A stretch of DNA of 64,000 bases, from NCBI RefSeq assembly GCF_002968285.2, contig NZ_CP134400.1:3038001-3102000 (forward strand). Direction: 5' to 3'. The first letter of the stretch is position 1. Each line of letters opens with the position of its first letter. A program made the translations under genes and the position numbers. The DNA is from Mycobacterium sp. ITM-2016-00318. Its GTDB lineage: Bacteria; Actinomycetota; Actinomycetes; Mycobacteriales; Mycobacteriaceae. The notes beneath the pieces are model-generated. The model was not told where the DNA came from. It worked only from the letters and a program-made list of their open reading frames with translations, and made no database searches. Shown one piece after another: positions 4,284-12,025 of the stretch.

Positions 4284-5039
4284 TTACCTCGGCCGGATGT
4301 AGCGCCCCACGAACCGTCGCAAGATCGTGGGCGGATATTCGATATGCCGTTGTCGTGCCGCCGCTTTCAAGGCGTCAGCGGATTCGGGTTCGAAGTAGCC
4401 GTAGTTCTTGTAGACGTCGATCCTGGTGAGGATGCCTGCCAGGTCCAACTCGGGGTGGAATTGCGTTGCGTACGTGTTGGCGCCGACCCGGAATGCCTGC
4501 ACGGGACAGTCCGGCGAGGAGGCGAGGCGCACCGCCTCGGGCGGCAGGGAACTGGCCGCCTCCTTGTGTCCGCCGAACGCGTCGAACACATCCGGCAACT
4601 CGGCGAACAGTGGGTCCTCGCGACCCGCTTCGGTGAGCGTGACCGTAACGGCGGCAACAGGTTCCGGATAGCTGCGGTCGACGGTGGCACCGATGACCGT
4701 ACCGAGCGTGCCAACGCCGTAACAGCACCCGAGGAATGGAAAATCCCGATCGACGATCTCCTCGACGAGTGTGAGCAACTCAGACTCGGCGCGCTGTTGC
4801 GTTTCGCTCTTCGACTCCGGTGGATCGCTGACGTTGTACGGTCCGCCACCGAGAATGACACCGGACCAGTCGTCGAGATTGACTGGCCCCAAAGGCCGGT
4901 GCGTGAGGCGGATACGGTGCATACCGCTCTCGTCGAGGCCTGCGAAGCGCATCATCGCCTGGTATTCGTTGTCCGCCGCTGCATCTTCGCCGCGTATGGA
5001 GAGCAGCAGGAACGGGGCGAGTTCGGCGTCTGTCGGCAT
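4284..5039 (-). CDS. class I glutamine amidotransferase (GMP-synthase-like)
   Basis: This protein of about 251 residues has the GATase1 fold. The nucleophile elbow is FLGCCYGVGTLG and the catalytic His/Glu pair is in TQFHPELD. VILGGGPYNVSD is the usual oxyanion-loop region. There is no synthetase domain, so it belongs to the stand-alone GMP-synthase-like group; substrate and acceptor are unknown. The ATG at 5039 (MPTDAEL) is preferred over an upstream ATG at 5078 because the longer form would overlap the neighbour at 5060. It lies 20 bases downstream of that gene and probably shares its transcript. It is convergent with mez, seven bases apart. Confidence 0.82.
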   Translation of the reverse strand: MPTDAELAPFLLLSIRGEDAAADNEYQAMMRFAGLDESGMHRIRLTHRPLGPVNLDDWSGVILGGGPYNVSDPPESKSETQQRAESELLTLVEEIVDRDFPFLGCCYGVGTLGTVIGATVDRSYPEPVAAVTVTLTEAGREDPLFAELPDVFDAFGGHKEAASSLPPEAVRLASSPDCPVQAFRVGANTYATQFHPELDLAGILTRIDVYKNYGYFEPESADALKAAARQRHIEYPPTILRRFVGRYIRPR

Positions 5040-5059
5040 TGGGTTCCCGGTGAGAAGTG

Positions 5060-5935
5060 TCAGCAGAAACCGAAGCACCCGCGGCGGCGCGGTTTCTCAC
5101 CCGGCGCGTCGCCGGGAGTGTTGGAATCGCTGCCGGGCACCGGCTTCGGTACCGGCGCGACGCTCATCGGCGCCCGGGTCACGTCAACTCTGGGCTTCGC
5201 GGCGGGAGACGGTTCGCTGTACCTCGGCTGGTACTGACGTTGCGGTGCGGAGTACGTCGGCTCCGCCGGACGAGGAGGTGGGGGCGGCGGAGGCGGAGGC
5301 GGAGGAGCCGGTTTCGGCTCGGGTCCGGGGGCACCCACCACCGCCGGGGCAGCCTTGGTCGGCGCGGGTGGGGCACTGGTCGCACCGGTGAGCGACTGTT
5401 CGGCCGCTGTGCTTGGACTCCGCAGGACGAACCAGCCGCCGCAGATCACCGCGGCGATGAGCGCCACCGCGAGGACCGCAGCCGCCGGCTTCGTGCGGTA
5501 CCAGTGCCATTCGCGATAGTTGGCGGCCGCGAAGTCATGTTCTGGTCGCACATACGGAGCCGACACCAGAGGCGGTTGCAGCGGGCTGTCGAAAAGATGG
5601 ATCCACTCGGGTTCGGCGGCCTGCTCCGGCACGACGTCATAGAGGTCGGTGGGATCAAAGGCCGCCCGGTCCTCCCACGGAGGCACGGATTGCGGTAGCA
5701 CCGGCGTGGGCACGTCGACGATGGGGATCGGCGCGGTCACCGGGTCGTGGTCGTGAATCGGGGGGACATCTTCTGCGGGGCGAGGCTGCTCACGAGCAGG
5801 ATCGGAATACGTGAAGTCTTGGTCTGGGGGGCCACCTGCTTGGCTCGACGCCGAACTAACCAACGATGTGAGGAGCGCCTGATCGGCCGCCCGACGAAGG
5901 GCGCGGCGTTCCATCAGCCGATTTACCCGCCCCAT
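5060..5935 (-). CDS. proline-rich single-pass membrane protein with TRAPxSVAP motif
   Basis: This 291-residue protein has a basic N-terminus, a long acidic/proline-rich cytoplasmic part (about 35-145), one membrane helix (about 151-171) and an extracytoplasmic tail of Ala/Thr/Pro with a run of about twelve prolines near residue 210. The tail holds TRAPMSVAPVPKP and ends with RRRGCFGFC. The TRAPxSVAP motif is shared with the gene at 602-1165. No catalytic domain is recognised. The ATG at 5935 is used; an internal ATG at 5914 is possible. It is probably cotranscribed with the amidotransferase downstream. Confidence 0.78.
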   Translation of the reverse strand: MGRVNRLMERRALRRAADQALLTSLVSSASSQAGGPPDQDFTYSDPAREQPRPAEDVPPIHDHDPVTAPIPIVDVPTPVLPQSVPPWEDRAAFDPTDLYDVVPEQAAEPEWIHLFDSPLQPPLVSAPYVRPEHDFAAANYREWHWYRTKPAAAVLAVALIAAVICGGWFVLRSPSTAAEQSLTGATSAPPAPTKAAPAVVGAPGPEPKPAPPPPPPPPPPPRPAEPTYSAPQRQYQPRYSEPSPAAKPRVDVTRAPMSVAPVPKPVPGSDSNTPGDAPGEKPRRRGCFGFC

Positions 5936-6308
5936 ACGGATAAGCCTAACCGGGACACGACCATGCCGCGTGCGCCTGTTGCCTCACGTGTCAGCCCGGC
6001 GAGGGTGCGTCATCCGCGCCGAGAAATGGGGTCGACACCCGATACTCGGCCCCTCTCACACGCTTGCCGAGCGGCCTTCAGCAAATTTTTGTCCGGTCAG
6101 TCGAAAAGCGCTTACCTCGACAACTCCCATCAATATTCGACGCTGAAGTTAATTAGATCGGCGACATTGTGCCAGCGTGGCGCCGTCAAGCGAGGCTTTC
6201 GGCAGAAAATTTTCTGTTGATCTTGATGATCGTTGGGTACTCGCTGGACACGAAAAGTGACGGCTATCACTGGGCTGGTTAAGCCGGTGCGATGAACAGG
6301 AGAGAGCA
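5936..6308. other. intergenic region, AT-rich, upstream of the repeat-protein/M50 unit
   Basis: About 370 bases hold no convincing gene. The middle (roughly 6070-6235) is much richer in A+T than its surroundings, with TTAATTA and AAAATTTTC tracts, which suggests a regulatory region serving the divergent gene at 5935 and the gene at 6309. A clear ribosome binding site, CAGGAGAGAGCA, precedes the ATG at 6309. No strong -35/-10 pair can be assigned by eye. Confidence 0.5.
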
Positions 6309-7121
6309 ATGAGTCAACAAAGTCTCACCCCCGAGGAGCTGATGGCGGAAAGCGCGACCGCACTTCCGGACAAGGAAGTGATCTCGATTCTCGACCTGAA
6401 TGTCGACGTCGACGTCTTCATCGACGCCGCCGCGCCCATTGACCTTGCCGCAGCCGCCCAGCTGAACGTGGCGGCGCCGATCGACGCCGCGGCCAGTGCC
6501 AACGTGTTGTCGACCAATTCCGATGCGCTCTCCCAGGTCACCCAGAACGGCACCCTTACGCAGATTCTGGATGGCACCGCAACCGCCACGGCCGATCAAG
6601 TCAGCGTCATCGACCAGTCCGATGTGGCCGACGGCGATCCCGAGGATACGGATCCGCCTGATGACGGCGGCACCGTTGAGGTCGGCGACCTTGCCACGCT
6701 CAGTGGTCCGCTGCTCAATGTGGACGTCAACGTCGACCTCGACACCGACCTGGCGGCTCCGATCGCCGGGGCAGTTGCGGCCAACGCCAACGTGGCCGCG
6801 CCGATCAGCGCCAGCGTCGCCGCCAACGTCCTGTCCACGGATTCCATCGCCAGCGCGGTGTCGAACCAGGAAGTAGAAATCTACCAGTCGCTGACTGGCG
6901 ATTCACTGGCTACGTCGACACAGGACGCCGAGATCACGCAGGGCACCTCGCAACCCGCTCCCACTGGTACGGCGTCGACCGCAACCGAAGCGGCTTCGGC
7001 GAGCACTGCGACCGGTGACGCCGGCGGTAGCGCATCCGGTGATGCCGGCGGTAGCACGTCCGGTGACAGCGGAGGCACCTCTGGCGGTACCTCGGACGGA
7101 TCGAGCGGTTCGGGTAGCTGA
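6309..7121 (+). CDS. repetitive acidic protein with leader-like N-terminus, partner of M50 peptidase
   Basis: This 270-residue protein has no signal peptide or membrane helix. Residues 1-30 form an amphipathic, leader-like segment (LTPEELMAESATALPDKEV) reminiscent of leaders bound by PqqD-like recognition elements. Two diverged copies of a module of about 75 residues follow (about 31-103 and 137-211), each with NVDV-, NVAAPI- and ANVLST- blocks and separated by an acidic Asp/Pro linker. The C-terminus is a low-complexity Gly/Ser/Thr/Asp tail with GDAGGS repeats. It has a strong ribosome binding site and sits 43 bases before the M50 gene. I do not recognise a family with known function; the idea that it is the peptidase substrate is inference from adjacency and the leader. 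Confidence 0.8.
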   Translation: MSQQSLTPEELMAESATALPDKEVISILDLNVDVDVFIDAAAPIDLAAAAQLNVAAPIDAAASANVLSTNSDALSQVTQNGTLTQILDGTATATADQVSVIDQSDVADGDPEDTDPPDDGGTVEVGDLATLSGPLLNVDVNVDLDTDLAAPIAGAVAANANVAAPISASVAANVLSTDSIASAVSNQEVEIYQSLTGDSLATSTQDAEITQGTSQPAPTGTASTATEAASASTATGDAGGSASGDAGGSTSGDSGGTSGGTSDGSSGSGS

Positions 7122-7164
7122 CGGGGTTAACCACTGAATCGCTGACACCACAGGGAGCAATGCT

Positions 7165-9729
7165 GTGACCATCGAGGCGCTAGGTAATGAGCGCACGGCA
7201 CCGGCGCAGGCGAAGCTGCGCCGGGCCGACGGTGTTGAGCTGATCGGGGAGATGGCGGGATCGGGCTACCGGGTCCCGCCTTCTCTCGCCCGGCGCACCG
7301 ACGGGCAGACGATCCAGCTCACTCCGCTGCTCTACGCGCTCCTCCGCGAGATCGACGGTCGCCGCTCCCCGGCCGAGCTCAGCACCGCCGTTTCCGAGTC
7401 GACCGGGCGTCCTGTGAGCGAGGAGAACGTTCACCAGCTCATCGAGCAGAAGCTGCGACCCCTAGGTCTACTGGCCAACAAGGACGGCAGCCAACCCGAG
7501 CTGAAGAAGCGGAATCCGTTGCTGGGACTCCGCTTCCGCTATGTCGTCACCGGCGCCGAGCGGACCCGGCGGCTCACCGACCCGTTCAGAGTCCTGTTCC
7601 GGCCCCTGGTGGTCGTGGCGCTTCTCGTCGCGTTCTGCGTCGTGTGCTGGTGGGTGTTCTTCCGTAAGGGTCTGGCCTCGGCCGCGTACGACGCTTTCGA
7701 GCGACCGGGACTGCTGCTGCTGGTGTTCGCGGTGACGGTGGTCAGCGCCGGGTTCCACGAATTCGGGCACGCTGCGGCGGCGAGATACGGCGGCGCCACG
7801 CCCGGCGCCATGGGCGTCGGCCTGTATCTCGTCTGGCCGGCTTTCTACACCGATGTGACTGACTCGTACCGACTCGGCAAGGCAGGACGGCTGCGGACCG
7901 ACCTCGGCGGCTTGTATTTCAATGCCATTGTCGCGGTGGGGATTTCCGGGCTGTGGTTGTGGCTGCAATACGACGCCCTTCTGCTGGTCGTAGCCACGCA
8001 GATCATCCAGATGCTGCGTCAACTTGCACCGCTGGTGCGGTTCGACGGCTACCACGTGCTGGCCGACCTCACCGGTGTGCCCGATCTGTATGGCCGGATC
8101 AAGCCCACCCTGTTGAGCATCCTGCCGTGGCGCTGGGGTGACCCGCACGCGCGGTTGCTGAAGCCGTGGGCACGCATCGTGGTGACGCTGTGGGTGGTCA
8201 TTGTGGTTCCACTTCTCGCACTGGCGCTTTGGACGGCAGTCGTGGCGCTTCCTCGCCTGATCGGCACCGCATGGGCCAGCCTCAACAAGCAGCAGGACGT
8301 GCTCGCCACCGCCTGGGCAGACGGCGACATGATTCAGGCGACCGCCCGTGTGCTGGCGATGACCGTCGTCGTGATCACGGTGGCGAGCGTTCTTTACATG
8401 GTGACTCGATTCACGCGCCAAATCGTGGTCACTGTGCGGCGGGCCACCGCCGATAAGCCGGTGAAGCGCATCCTCGCCGGCATCGTGGGCGCCGCTGTTA
8501 TCACCGCGATCGCCTGGGCGTGGTGGCCGAACGACGAGAATTATCGCCCCATCCAGGCATCGGACCGCGGCACGATCGGCGACATCTTCTACGGCTTGCA
8601 GGTCTCCTCGCTGAGCGAATCCCGGACTGTCAGGGACGCACCACGCCCGGTTGCTGCTTCGAGCAACCTTGTGCGGGGACAACACGGTGTCATGCAAGCC
8701 CTCTGGGATATGCGCACCCCGCCGCCCACGAAGGAGTCGCCGCAACTGGCAGTCATCCTGGTGCCCCGGGCCGGGTCGGTCACCGTGGCCGGTGGTGGCG
8801 GTGGGTTAGTGGCCACCCCGTCGACCTCGGCGAAGGCCGGCTGGGTCTTCCCTGTCGACAAGCCGCTGAAGCCGGAGAAAGGCGACAACCAAGCACTAGC
8901 GGTGAACACCAGAGACAACTCGATGGTGTACGACGCCGCGCTCGCCATGGTCTACGTCGAGGGCTCCGAGGCGATGAACGTCAACGAGGCCCATGCCTAC
9001 GCGTCATGCAATTCGTGTGGCGCGGTCGCGGTGGCCTATCAGGTGGTCATCGTCCTCGACACCGACCCGACCGACGACAACGTGGCCGTGCCGCAGAACC
9101 TCGCCGGTGCCCTCAACTACGACTGCGTCAACTGCATGACCTACGCGCTCGCACAGCAGCTGTTCATCACCATCGACGAACCGTTGACCCCGCGGCAAAA
9201 GTGGGAACTCCAGAGGATCATGTGGGAGATGAGGCTCTACGAAGTCCGAATCAAGGCGGGGACCGAGGATCCGGAGGAGATCCAGGCCAAACTCGACGAG
9301 TTCGATACACGCATTCTGGCCGTCGTCGAGCCAAACCTGGCGCCGTCACTGACTCAGACCCCGACCGCTCCGACCACAGCACCGACCACCGCCGCGCCGA
9401 GCGCGTCGACAGCGCCCTCGTCGTCCGCGCCATCGGAGACTGCTACCGCACCACCCTCGCCGAGCAGCGAGCCCACCGCATCGACGGAACCGACGGCGTC
9501 CGCTGACACCACAACCGGGAACGTCATATCCACCGACCCGACCACGTCGGGGGACAACACCTCGGTGGCGAGCACCCCAGATGGATCCACTTCGACCGAC
9601 CCCACGACATCAAGCGGAACGGATGGCTCGACGTCGACCGATTCCACCACGGACGGCACGGCGACGACCGACTCCACGACCGACTCCACGACTGATGGAT
9701 CGGCCACGGACGGCACTACCTCGCCGTAG
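7165..9729 (+). CDS. PqqD-like domain fused to M50 membrane metallopeptidase with Ser/Thr-rich tail
   Basis: This 854-residue protein begins at GTG 7165 after AGGGAGCA. Residues about 25-105 look like a PqqD/RiPP-recognition winged helix (a variable-length domain with PLLYALLREIDGRRSPAEL). Several membrane helices start near residue 147. The zinc site is HEFGH at 198-202 and the third ligand is probably Asp294 in FDGYHVLAD, as in site-2-protease-like M50 peptidases. After the membrane part, about residue 505, comes an extracytoplasmic domain with two CxxC pairs (C615/C618 and C654/C657), then about 130 residues of Thr/Ser/Asp repeats. The family resembles putative peptide zinc metalloproteases linked to peptide maturation. 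It ends one base before the convergent icl2 stop. Confidence 0.85.
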   Translation: MTIEALGNERTAPAQAKLRRADGVELIGEMAGSGYRVPPSLARRTDGQTIQLTPLLYALLREIDGRRSPAELSTAVSESTGRPVSEENVHQLIEQKLRPLGLLANKDGSQPELKKRNPLLGLRFRYVVTGAERTRRLTDPFRVLFRPLVVVALLVAFCVVCWWVFFRKGLASAAYDAFERPGLLLLVFAVTVVSAGFHEFGHAAAARYGGATPGAMGVGLYLVWPAFYTDVTDSYRLGKAGRLRTDLGGLYFNAIVAVGISGLWLWLQYDALLLVVATQIIQMLRQLAPLVRFDGYHVLADLTGVPDLYGRIKPTLLSILPWRWGDPHARLLKPWARIVVTLWVVIVVPLLALALWTAVVALPRLIGTAWASLNKQQDVLATAWADGDMIQATARVLAMTVVVITVASVLYMVTRFTRQIVVTVRRATADKPVKRILAGIVGAAVITAIAWAWWPNDENYRPIQASDRGTIGDIFYGLQVSSLSESRTVRDAPRPVAASSNLVRGQHGVMQALWDMRTPPPTKESPQLAVILVPRAGSVTVAGGGGGLVATPSTSAKAGWVFPVDKPLKPEKGDNQALAVNTRDNSMVYDAALAMVYVEGSEAMNVNEAHAYASCNSCGAVAVAYQVVIVLDTDPTDDNVAVPQNLAGALNYDCVNCMTYALAQQLFITIDEPLTPRQKWELQRIMWEMRLYEVRIKAGTEDPEEIQAKLDEFDTRILAVVEPNLAPSLTQTPTAPTTAPTTAAPSASTAPSSSAPSETATAPPSPSSEPTASTEPTASADTTTGNVISTDPTTSGDNTSVASTPDGSTSTDPTTSSGTDGSTSTDSTTDGTATTDSTTDSTTDGSATDGTTSP

Positions 9730-9730
9730 C

Positions 9731-12025
9731 TCAGTCCTCCTTGCGAATCAACCGCATCAGCGCTTCGCGGTCGGGCGCCAGCAGATCCTCGATGCGCGGC
9801 TGATTCACCTCGGCGACGATGACCTCACCGACGTCCTTGTTGACCTCGCTGAAAATGCCGTGCGACTTCATCTTCTCGGTCTGATAGATGTTGTCCTCGG
9901 TCGGCTTGATGTAGTACACCGCGTCGGCCTTGAACCGGTGGATCAGCCACAGATGAATCAACGTCATCAGCCGCTTCTGCCGCAGTTGCGATGCGAACGT
10001 GTTCTGGTCGCGCACCGTCAGAATGCTGCGCCCGTTCCTGTCCTTGATGGGATCGACGAGGACATTGGCGAGCTTGTCGTCGCCACCGGCCCCGCCGTAG
10101 ATGCCGAGCTCGAGCACTTCGCCACCTGGGCGCAGCGGACGGAACTGGAGGCGCAGCTTCTCGCCGAGCTGGTAGTGCTCGCCCCACATCGCCAGCCACT
10201 CCTCGAGCAGCTTCTTGGGTACCTCGGTCTGCACGAGGTGCTGATGCTGTGTTGAGCCTTCGCCCATCGACTTCGTGGTGGCCGTCCGGCCGGAGGACGC
10301 TGCCAGGGCGGCGTCGCTACGCGGCCCCCCGACCAGAGTCTGCGGAGTGCGGTACGGCGACTCCACTAGACGCATCTTGCGCTGAAGGCGGGCCAGCGAA
10401 AGCATCCCGTCCTGCTTGAGCGCCCCGGCGAACTCTTCGGCTGCGACGCCGTCGATTTGGTGGCCGCCGTAGGTCATGAAGTTGAAGACGAAGCCCATCT
10501 TGCCGATTTCCTCTGGAAACCGGCGCATCTCGTCATCGCTCATACCGGTGGTGTCCCAGTTGAACGACGGGGAGAGGTTGTACGCCAACATCTTGTCGGG
10601 ATACACGGCGTGGATGGCGTCGGCGAACTGCTTGGCGTCGGCCAGGTCCGCGGTCTTGGTCTCCATCCACAGGATGTCGGCGAATGGCGCCGCGGCAAGG
10701 GACTTCGCGATCGCGTACGGGATGCCGCCGCGCAACTGGTAGTAGCCCTCGGGAGTCTTCGCCCGCTCACAGTCCCAGCCGGCGTCGGCCCGCAGCTCCC
10801 GCGCCTTCTGGCGAGCCTCGTAGAGTGGCGCCGTCGCGGCGAACGTGCGCCAATCGGCGGCGCTCATCTCGAGAGCTTCGCCCTCGCGTTCACGGAACTC
10901 GAGAAGATCCGCGACGGCCTCACCGTAGGTCTCCAACCCCGCATCGTTCTGCCATGCCTCGACAAAACGTGATTCGACCTTGTCGAAGAGGGCGTCGACC
11001 GCCTCGTCGCCGTCCTGTTGCCATGTCGCCACGGCGTCGGCAATGAGCGCCAAGATGCCTTGCCGCTCAAGCCAAGCGATGGCCGCCGCGTACTCGCCCT
11101 CAGGCAGGGCGTAGAGCAGATGCCCGTTGAGGTGTGTGATGCCCGACTCGTAGAAGCTTCGCACCATCGCCAGAAAGCACGACTTGTAGGAGGGGATCCT
11201 GAGGTTGGTGACACCGAGCAGGAACGGCTGGTCGCGCTCGTCGGCGCGGCTGTCGATCAGGTTGGCGGCCTCGGCATCGGTGCGCGCGACGATGATCCCT
11301 GCGACACCCATGATGTCGAGCTGGAAGCGGGCGGTGTTGAGCCGCTTGATCTGTTCGTCCGACGGGACGAGCACCTTGCCGCCCTGATGACCGCACTTCT
11401 TCGTGCCGGGACGCTGGTCTTCGATGTGGTAGCCGGGCACGCCCGCCTCGACGAACCGCCGAATCAGGTTGCGCACGTGCGGGTCTCCGCCATGGCCGGT
11501 GTCAGCGTCGGCGATGATGAACGGCCGGAAGTCGACGGCGGGGGTTGCCGCGCGCTGGTCGTCGGTCATCCGCAGGCGCAGGTACTGCTGGTTGCGGTCT
11601 GCGGTCAGCAGCGCGCGCACCAATCCGGCGGCCTCATCGGGAACCTGGCTCAGCGGATAGCTTGCGAGATCGGGTCCGGGATCCTCGGTCGTCGACCCCT
11701 TTGCCGATGTCGCCCAGCCGCCGAGATAGATGCCCTCGATGCCCATCCGCTTCATCGTGACCGCCTGGCCGGGGGAGTAGGGCCCGAAGGTGGTGATGCT
11801 CTTGTGCTGGGCGAAGAGCTCGCGCAGCCGGTCGTAGAAGGCTGCCGCCGCCTGGCGGGCTACCGGGTAATCAGTGCCGATCGTGCCGCGCTGCTCTACT
11901 ACCTGGCGGGCCGAATAGAGGCGGATGATGCCCTCGAAGCGAGGACTGTCGAAATACCGCTGCATCGCGGCGACATCCTGCTCGAACGGGGTCTGGGGCG
12001 CTGCATCTGTTTCGACGATGGCCAT
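9731..12025 (-). CDS. icl2: isocitrate lyase, long ICL2 (AceAb) form
   Basis: Isocitrate lyase splits isocitrate to glyoxylate and succinate, the first step of the glyoxylate shunt, and also acts as methylisocitrate lyase in propionate metabolism in mycobacteria. At 764 residues this is the long ICL2 type, not the ICL1 type of about 430 residues. The catalytic signature KKCGH is at residues 209-213 (Cys211), and [12 protein letters not shown] and YHIEDQRPG supply metal and substrate contacts. The C-terminal extension is present in full; in M. tuberculosis H37Rv the orthologue is split as aceAa/aceAb, whereas here it is intact. The start ATG follows TAGTGT by six bases, so the message is probably leaderless, and an inverted repeat overlaps that box. 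Confidence 0.93.

Follow-up and report, generated by a model that had tools for sequence, protein, structure and literature searches.

The 64,000-nucleotide window analysed here (Mycobacterium sp. ITM-2016-00318, contig NZ_CP134400.1, positions 3,038,001 to 3,102,000 of the forward strand) sits within a 5.46-Mb single-contig genome and contains two adjacent open reading frames (ORFs) on the plus strand, encoding a 270-residue repeat protein (6309-7121, ATG start) and, 43 nt further on, an 854-residue membrane protease (7165-9729, GTG start). The closest named relatives of both proteins are from Mycolicibacterium and Mycobacterium. The protease joins a predicted RRE (recognition element of ribosomally synthesized and post-translationally modified peptides, RiPPs) to a core of the M50 or site-2 protease (S2P) type and to a C-terminal ectodomain. 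The features of the pair, with the basis for each in brackets, are:

6309-7121, plus strand: repeat protein, 270 aa, the putative substrate (ORF; in 79 of 80 relatives a homologue, once only a fragment, immediately precedes the protease)
6309-6398, plus strand: leader, residues 1-30, with an LPDKEV core at residues 19-24, 6363-6380 (conservation, motif counts)
6390-6617, plus strand: module 1, residues 28-103 (module alignment, precursor profile)
6519-6617, plus strand: alternating Ser/Ala/Gln/Ile stretch of module 1, residues 71-103 (position-wise conservation)
6711-6941, plus strand: module 2, residues 135-211, with no leader of its own (module alignment, precursor profile)
6843-6941, plus strand: alternating stretch of module 2, residues 179-211 (position-wise conservation)
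6945-7118, plus strand: S/G/T/A/D tail, residues 213-270, a mycobacterial feature (tail counts)
7165-9729, plus strand: RRE-M50 protease with ectodomain, 854 aa (ORF, family scans, predicted structure)
7222-7485, plus strand: predicted RRE/PqqD-type domain, residues 20-107 (Pfam scan of relatives, predicted structure, fold list)
7603-8520, plus strand: membrane protease core, residues 147-452 (sequence, predicted structure)
7756-7770, plus strand: HEFGH, residues 198-202 (sequence)
8044-8046, plus strand: Asp294, within DGYH (sequence)
8842-9330, plus strand: predicted ectodomain, residues 560-722, with CxxC at 615-618, 9007-9018, and 654-657, 9124-9135 (sequence, separate ORF in relatives, predicted structure)
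9331-9726, plus strand: S/T/P-rich C-terminal tail, residues 723-854 (sequence, predicted structure)

Genome contigs were scanned with the protease alignment, and the pair was counted in the best 80 of 286 confirmed relatives, i.e. the closest ones. The relatives come from Mycolicibacterium, Nocardioides, Arthrobacter, Pseudarthrobacter, Kribbella, Sinomonas, Pedococcus, Actinokineospora, and others. In 79 of the 80 loci the ORF immediately 5' of the protease, in the same orientation, matches a repeat-protein profile, and 78 of these ORFs are intact; in L070 the repeat-protein sequence breaks off into an unrelated gene, and in L026, the sole locus with no match, the start of the protease too runs into unrelated sequence (both were counted as misses). 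Co-occurrence of the two genes had been set beforehand as a test of the initial annotation, and the 78 intact pairs bear it out. With start codons chosen by script, which gave no start in two of the 80 pairs, the genes of the remaining 78 (window included) are separated by 1-50 nt in 70 cases and touch or overlap in 8. Among 602 ORF families with at least three loci, 12 outside the pair span mycobacterial and other loci, each in at most 11 of the 80 and at scattered positions on both strands. No conserved neighbour besides the pair, modifying and immunity genes included, was found at the 80 best loci or at 15 further loci (L088-L102); in the latter, no ORF family outside the system region is common to three or more loci beyond two kin groups, one genus (L088, L090, L092) and one family of genomes (L095-L097). 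Both proteins occur in three of 21 near genomes and neither in the other 18. At L078, a second, partial protease-like ORF (9782-10579, plus strand, E 6.7e-49) lies upstream of an intact pair.

The leader of the repeat protein has the consensus LTxEELxAExxxALPDKEVxS, and its residues 19-30 are the most conserved of the stretches compared (mean 0.93, versus 0.35 for residues 1-5; the value for residues 213-270 was gap-inflated and left out). One out-of-frame row of an earlier alignment was dropped from the later one. LPDKE is found in 73 of the 79 repeat-protein matches and LPAKE in five, the remaining one being the truncated L070. The two modules share 36 identities over 77 columns (score 143; highest of 1000 shuffles, 78). 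The protein has no hydrophobic membrane segment, no recognisable Sec signal, and, at E <= 1, no match in Pfam or NCBIfam. The leader-bearing, non-membrane protein with two module copies described by the initial annotation is indeed present. Its profile retrieved nothing useful from solved structures in a sequence search (best E 0.81). K, R, H, C, and W together account for a median of one residue of the mature region in both groups compared (maxima 3 and 5). The C-terminal residue is Ser in the window and Gln in most non-mycobacterial proteins. Ser/Thr/Gly/Asp tails had been noted on both window proteins, and both have tails, that of the protease being S/T/P-rich; as a shared feature they do not hold, since a repeat-protein tail of at least 20 aa occurs in 26 of 26 mycobacterial relatives versus 3 of 53 others, and this tail is therefore dispensable for basic function. 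Several public homologues carry the label 'peptidoglycan-binding protein' with no Pfam or NCBIfam domain, probably a mis-annotation. Extra repeats of the VVDSAGNVVGxLDxxTG type enlarge the inter-module linker at L063 (8439-9977) and L074 (3540-5099, both plus strand).

Within residues 71-103 and 179-211 every second residue is kept (73 aligned proteins), the conserved odd positions reading S-A-A-A-Q-V/A-I-Q-I-A/G-A-A-A/S-Q-S-I-Q. Mean conservation in the module 1 and module 2 stretches is 0.82 and 0.87 at odd positions versus 0.48 and 0.42 at even positions, an alternation matched by 5 and 0 of 100000 permutations, respectively; in the comparison stretches 1-30, 31-67, and 139-175 the odd-even difference is at most 0.09. 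Of 80 proteins, 67 have two copies of the pattern Q-x5-Q-x11-Q-x5-Q, seven have one, and six have none, for a total of 141 against a shuffle expectation of 0.1. The proteins and genomes counted are kin, so that such shuffle controls on the module code cannot be read as independent-event probabilities. An unbroken two-residue period, Gln ladders, and an 18-residue repeat are expected of a beta-solenoid or curlin-like stack. By analogy, the module code resembles that of beta-solenoids and curlin-like amyloids.

In the protease, the HEFGH motif and Asp294, read by the initial annotation as a zinc site, are both found at residues 198-202 and 294, and the protein shows the M50/site-2 protease trait of HExxH with a distant Asp inside a multi-segment membrane core. 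PF02163 scores 10.6 bits at residues 190-220, below its cut-off of 27.2, which is a score threshold and not a defining trait. By the positive-inside rule the S2P-like zinc site faces the cytoplasm, and prediction supports the S2P-like core and a C-terminus outside. The N-terminal domain is predicted to have three strands and three helices in the winged-helix fold of RREs, in keeping with the PqqD-like domain proposed earlier, though PqqD itself (PF05402) matches the sequences of 13 of 38 relatives (best E 4e-4) and not the window domain. A sequence search of solved structures with the protease profile matched the low-complexity tail region only. AGOG, Thioredoxin_3, and zf-C4pol were rejected as identities for the ectodomain (rows at E 0.05-0.55; no Pfam family above cut-off). 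Elsewhere in the window, a divergent ORF at 5060-5935 on the minus strand encodes a 291-aa protein with one membrane segment, long proline-rich stretches, and no Pfam family.

Beyond these closest relatives, an even draw of 118 genomes from the class was searched with the protease core, which matches 39: 23 were called close (22 at E <= 1e-60 plus G102, cut by a contig end, with 71% identity over 48 residues) and 16 weak. At six second-tier loci (L088-L093) small precursors stand in for the two-module protein. L088, L089, L091, and L092 each have three upstream of the protease and L093 has one; L090 has none, its contig ending at that point, and another contig of its genome carries three. Each tandem precursor is about 70 aa long and consists of a leader (LPDREAMSL or LPDREQMSL) and one module, and a profile built from nine of them matches both window modules (E 2e-8 and 9e-6). 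A sequence search of solved structures with the small precursors gave no match. Two-module forms with a single leader also occur among the small-precursor relatives (P0251, L119). There is thus one leader per polypeptide, not per module, and the leader therefore behaves as expected of a recognition signal. A small-precursor search gave at least 8000 matches; among the 120 listed, names are 'hypothetical protein' or absent, except for one 'predicted peroxiredoxin', and the pattern A.[AS].[AS].Q...[IVLF].Q is present in 117 (0.07 in shuffles). The same pattern was found in two of three distant precursors tried.

At L088-L092 and L099 the protease is followed on its 3' side by an ORF that resembles the CxxC...CxxC region at the C-terminus of the window protease, and several of these ORFs have a signal sequence by eye, so that the proteins are apparently secreted. 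The window protease thus corresponds to the RRE-protease and that protein in one chain. Judged from sequence, the system is three-part and packed into two genes in the window; the minimal two-gene system proposed initially holds for the gene count here and fails to separate out a third component, which relatives encode as its own gene. In the 118 genomes the ectodomain and the module profile are each found in 17, with 16 in common, all inside the 23 close genomes; the exceptions are G102 and G126, whose loci abut contig ends. The genomes are related, and Fisher values for this association are therefore not independent-event probabilities. Second ectodomain copies occur at L089 (4498-5316, plus strand, divergent from the operon) and on another contig of its genome in G040 (contig 122). 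At L099 (5941-8229, plus strand) the protease ORF runs on into a ParA/MinD-like ATPase (P-loop GKGGVGKTT, by eye), followed by the ectodomain ORF.

A wider search with the module profile, across 296 genomes of the phylum, gave matches in 18, and 14 of those are listed as outside the class. A protease is present at 12 of these 14 loci, and L125 ends at a contig edge. The ectodomain is present at nine, as a fusion in four (L121-L124) and as its own ORF in five; at L115 several kb separate it from the precursors that follow. A tree of 51 protease cores splits 43 family rows from eight labelled daptide-like (support 100/99) and recovers the tandem-precursor group as a single clade (99/99). Rooted on the daptide-like rows, the fused form takes two changes, or one in 46% of bootstrap trees, and the tree leaves the derived status of the fused, two-module form unsettled.

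Among known systems the daptides are nearest. MpaP/DapP has an RRE fused N-terminally to a site-2 protease and a conserved leader motif in its substrate (PMC10036551), as does the pair described here, and the daptide-like proteases are its sister group in the tree (two of the eight rows so labelled were scanned, both above the daptide cut-off). These two, L104 (G022) and L106 (G037), score 405 and 483 bits and belong to nine weak loci that were fetched, eight from as many of the 16 weak genomes and the ninth a second, weak locus of G022. In contrast, scores against NF041824 (cut-off 300) are 81-117 bits for five close proteases of the second and third tiers and 110 bits for the window protease. 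The window protease also has an extra ectodomain and tail, its substrate is a beta-repeat protein, and that precursor ends in Ser where the daptide criterion is Thr. For the daptide decarboxylase, aminotransferase, and methyltransferase, the comparison gave no conserved neighbour besides the pair, individual neighbours not all being named. The protease is related to MpaP, yet the system is not a daptide system. The epipeptide protease EpeP/YydH-LiaK is likewise a membrane M50 protease, proposed both to cleave and to export a small product that is RRE-less or bears a leader (PMC10885120). The window protease reaches only 40 bits against NF058609 (cut-off 225), with the match confined to core residues 175-305. 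Structures 5v1u and 5v1v, of the lasso-peptide RRE TbiB1 solved with its leader, differ in being a stand-alone RRE from another pathway, and other winged helices stand nearly as high in the fold list. Curli subunits (CsgA/CsgB) have repeats in which Gln and small residues recur at regular intervals and are exported by Sec and an outer-membrane channel; the modules share that spacing of Gln and small residues, and possibly an anchored nucleator, but their Gln spacing is 6-12-6, no curlin family matches, and an RRE-protease replaces Sec and the channel. A leader-bearing precursor beside an RRE protein, as in RiPP pathways, is present. No modification enzyme is conserved next door, though one may be encoded elsewhere in the genome, and in the strict sense the earlier label 'RiPP-like' is not supported. 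Searches of open-licence literature listed nothing recognised as describing the beta-repeat substrates, the ectodomain, or their fusion.

We give a probability of roughly 0.58 to the locus being a system in which a leader guides the maturation of a beta-repeat protein, including a cut, outward passage, and surface assembly held by the ectodomain. Pair conservation and the predicted RRE fold support the core of the initial proposal, an M50-type protease that is guided by its RRE to a dedicated substrate with a leader; the tandem leader-plus-module precursors, the CxxC ectodomain, and the every-second-residue module code go beyond it. Recognition of the leader by the protease's RRE is well supported, although binding itself is something we infer. 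The repeat protein, which lacks a recognisable Sec signal, would be synthesised in the cytoplasm and bound there through its leader by the RRE domain. The zinc site, S2P-like and facing the cytoplasm, would sever the leader from module 1, with the membrane protein helping to move the freed protein outwards. Outside, the modules may stack into a beta-solenoid or amyloid-like assembly, which the CxxC ectodomain and S/T/P tail would hold, cap, or template at the envelope; display at the surface would be the outcome. The order of capture, cut, passage, and assembly is inferred from the dual cleavage and export role proposed for EpeP in a review, according to which deletion of epeP leaves some product (PMC10885120). 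Near-constant cores, scarce K/R/H/C/W, and the lack of conserved modifying or immunity neighbours argue for a structural rather than antimicrobial product.

Several observations weigh against this maturation and assembly scheme. Five of the 23 close-protease genomes (G057, G106, G118, G129, and G119; loci L097, L095, L096, L094, and L098, respectively) have neither module nor ectodomain. Their small upstream ORFs carry LLPERT, LLPDRT, or LLPGRE leaders in L094-L096 and L098, and L097 has relatives of the L094-L096 ORFs; on sequence, some close relatives of the protease thus appear to serve other cores, and more distant ones serve other precursors. At L094-L097 the small ORFs are paired, with the LLPxRT leader kept, quite different cores, and no ectodomain, and from these loci the leader-protease unit may serve other cargoes. 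L114 (G289; 5032-7045, minus strand) has three precursors and an ectodomain with no protease within 6 kb, where the protease may be unlinked or lost, and at L116 and L118 the precursors are on the strand opposite to the protease. The methyltransferase winged-helix family PF21782 equals PqqD in the relatives matched (13 of 38 each), and non-RRE winged helices, including the top row, score like RREs in the fold list, so the RRE fold is not exclusive. Neither curlin nor any other family matches the repeat protein (Pfam at E <= 1; profile searches), its predicted model is poor (mean predicted local distance difference test score, pLDDT, 56), and a fold search with that model was empty, which is uninformative either way. 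Finally, we know of no export channel for the system.

Three other explanations were weighed. Tandem leader-bearing precursors of about 70 aa, and the service of M50 proteases in daptides and epipeptides (PMC10036551, PMC10885120), fit secreted bacteriocins or signalling peptides, with precursors cut to short peptides acting on other cells and the two-module protein as a fused precursor; but the cores are near-constant across genera rather than varied, the two-module proteins are 200-300 aa long, and no immunity-like neighbour is conserved, and we consider this unlikely. Quite unlikely, too, is regulated proteolysis, with the leader protein a cytoplasmic regulator or chaperone client whose repeats stay inside while the ectodomain senses the envelope and cutting signals: S2P-like proteases often act in signalling and neither an export channel nor a Sec signal was found, but the substrate has no DNA-binding or other signalling family, its conserved part past the leader is the repeat code, and there are several near-identical substrates per locus. 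Least probable is a hidden RiPP pathway whose modules are modified by enzymes encoded elsewhere before leader removal: RRE plus leader is RiPP logic and the protease is related to MpaP, but no modifying gene is among the conserved neighbours and K, R, H, C, and W are together almost absent from the mature region (median 1), with Ser, Thr, Asp, and Asn still possible targets. Within leader-guided maturation, a more specific and tentative version, on balance doubtful, is an actinobacterial counterpart of curli on RiPP logic, in which unmodified amyloid-like subunits would be read by the RRE, cut and exported by the site-2 protease, and nucleated or anchored by the CxxC ectodomain.

RRE domains and RRE-fused site-2 proteases are familiar from peptide natural products, and the enzyme logic is already known from daptides and epipeptides; what appears new is a large conserved beta-repeat substrate family without a conserved modifying enzyme, the ectodomain, and the fusion. 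In many actinobacteria a membrane protease with a built-in leader reader adjoins a repetitive, possibly fibre-forming partner, and the window holds the two-gene form. If the proposed system is real, RiPP-type leader recognition would be linked to surface assembly, a site-2 protease would be predicted to have an export role, and an abundant unnamed protein family would become directly testable. Should the curli-like version be true, structural surface proteins would have a route that depends on a leader and not on Sec. The leader-reading protease and its repeat partner may represent a new bacterial route for maturing surface proteins.

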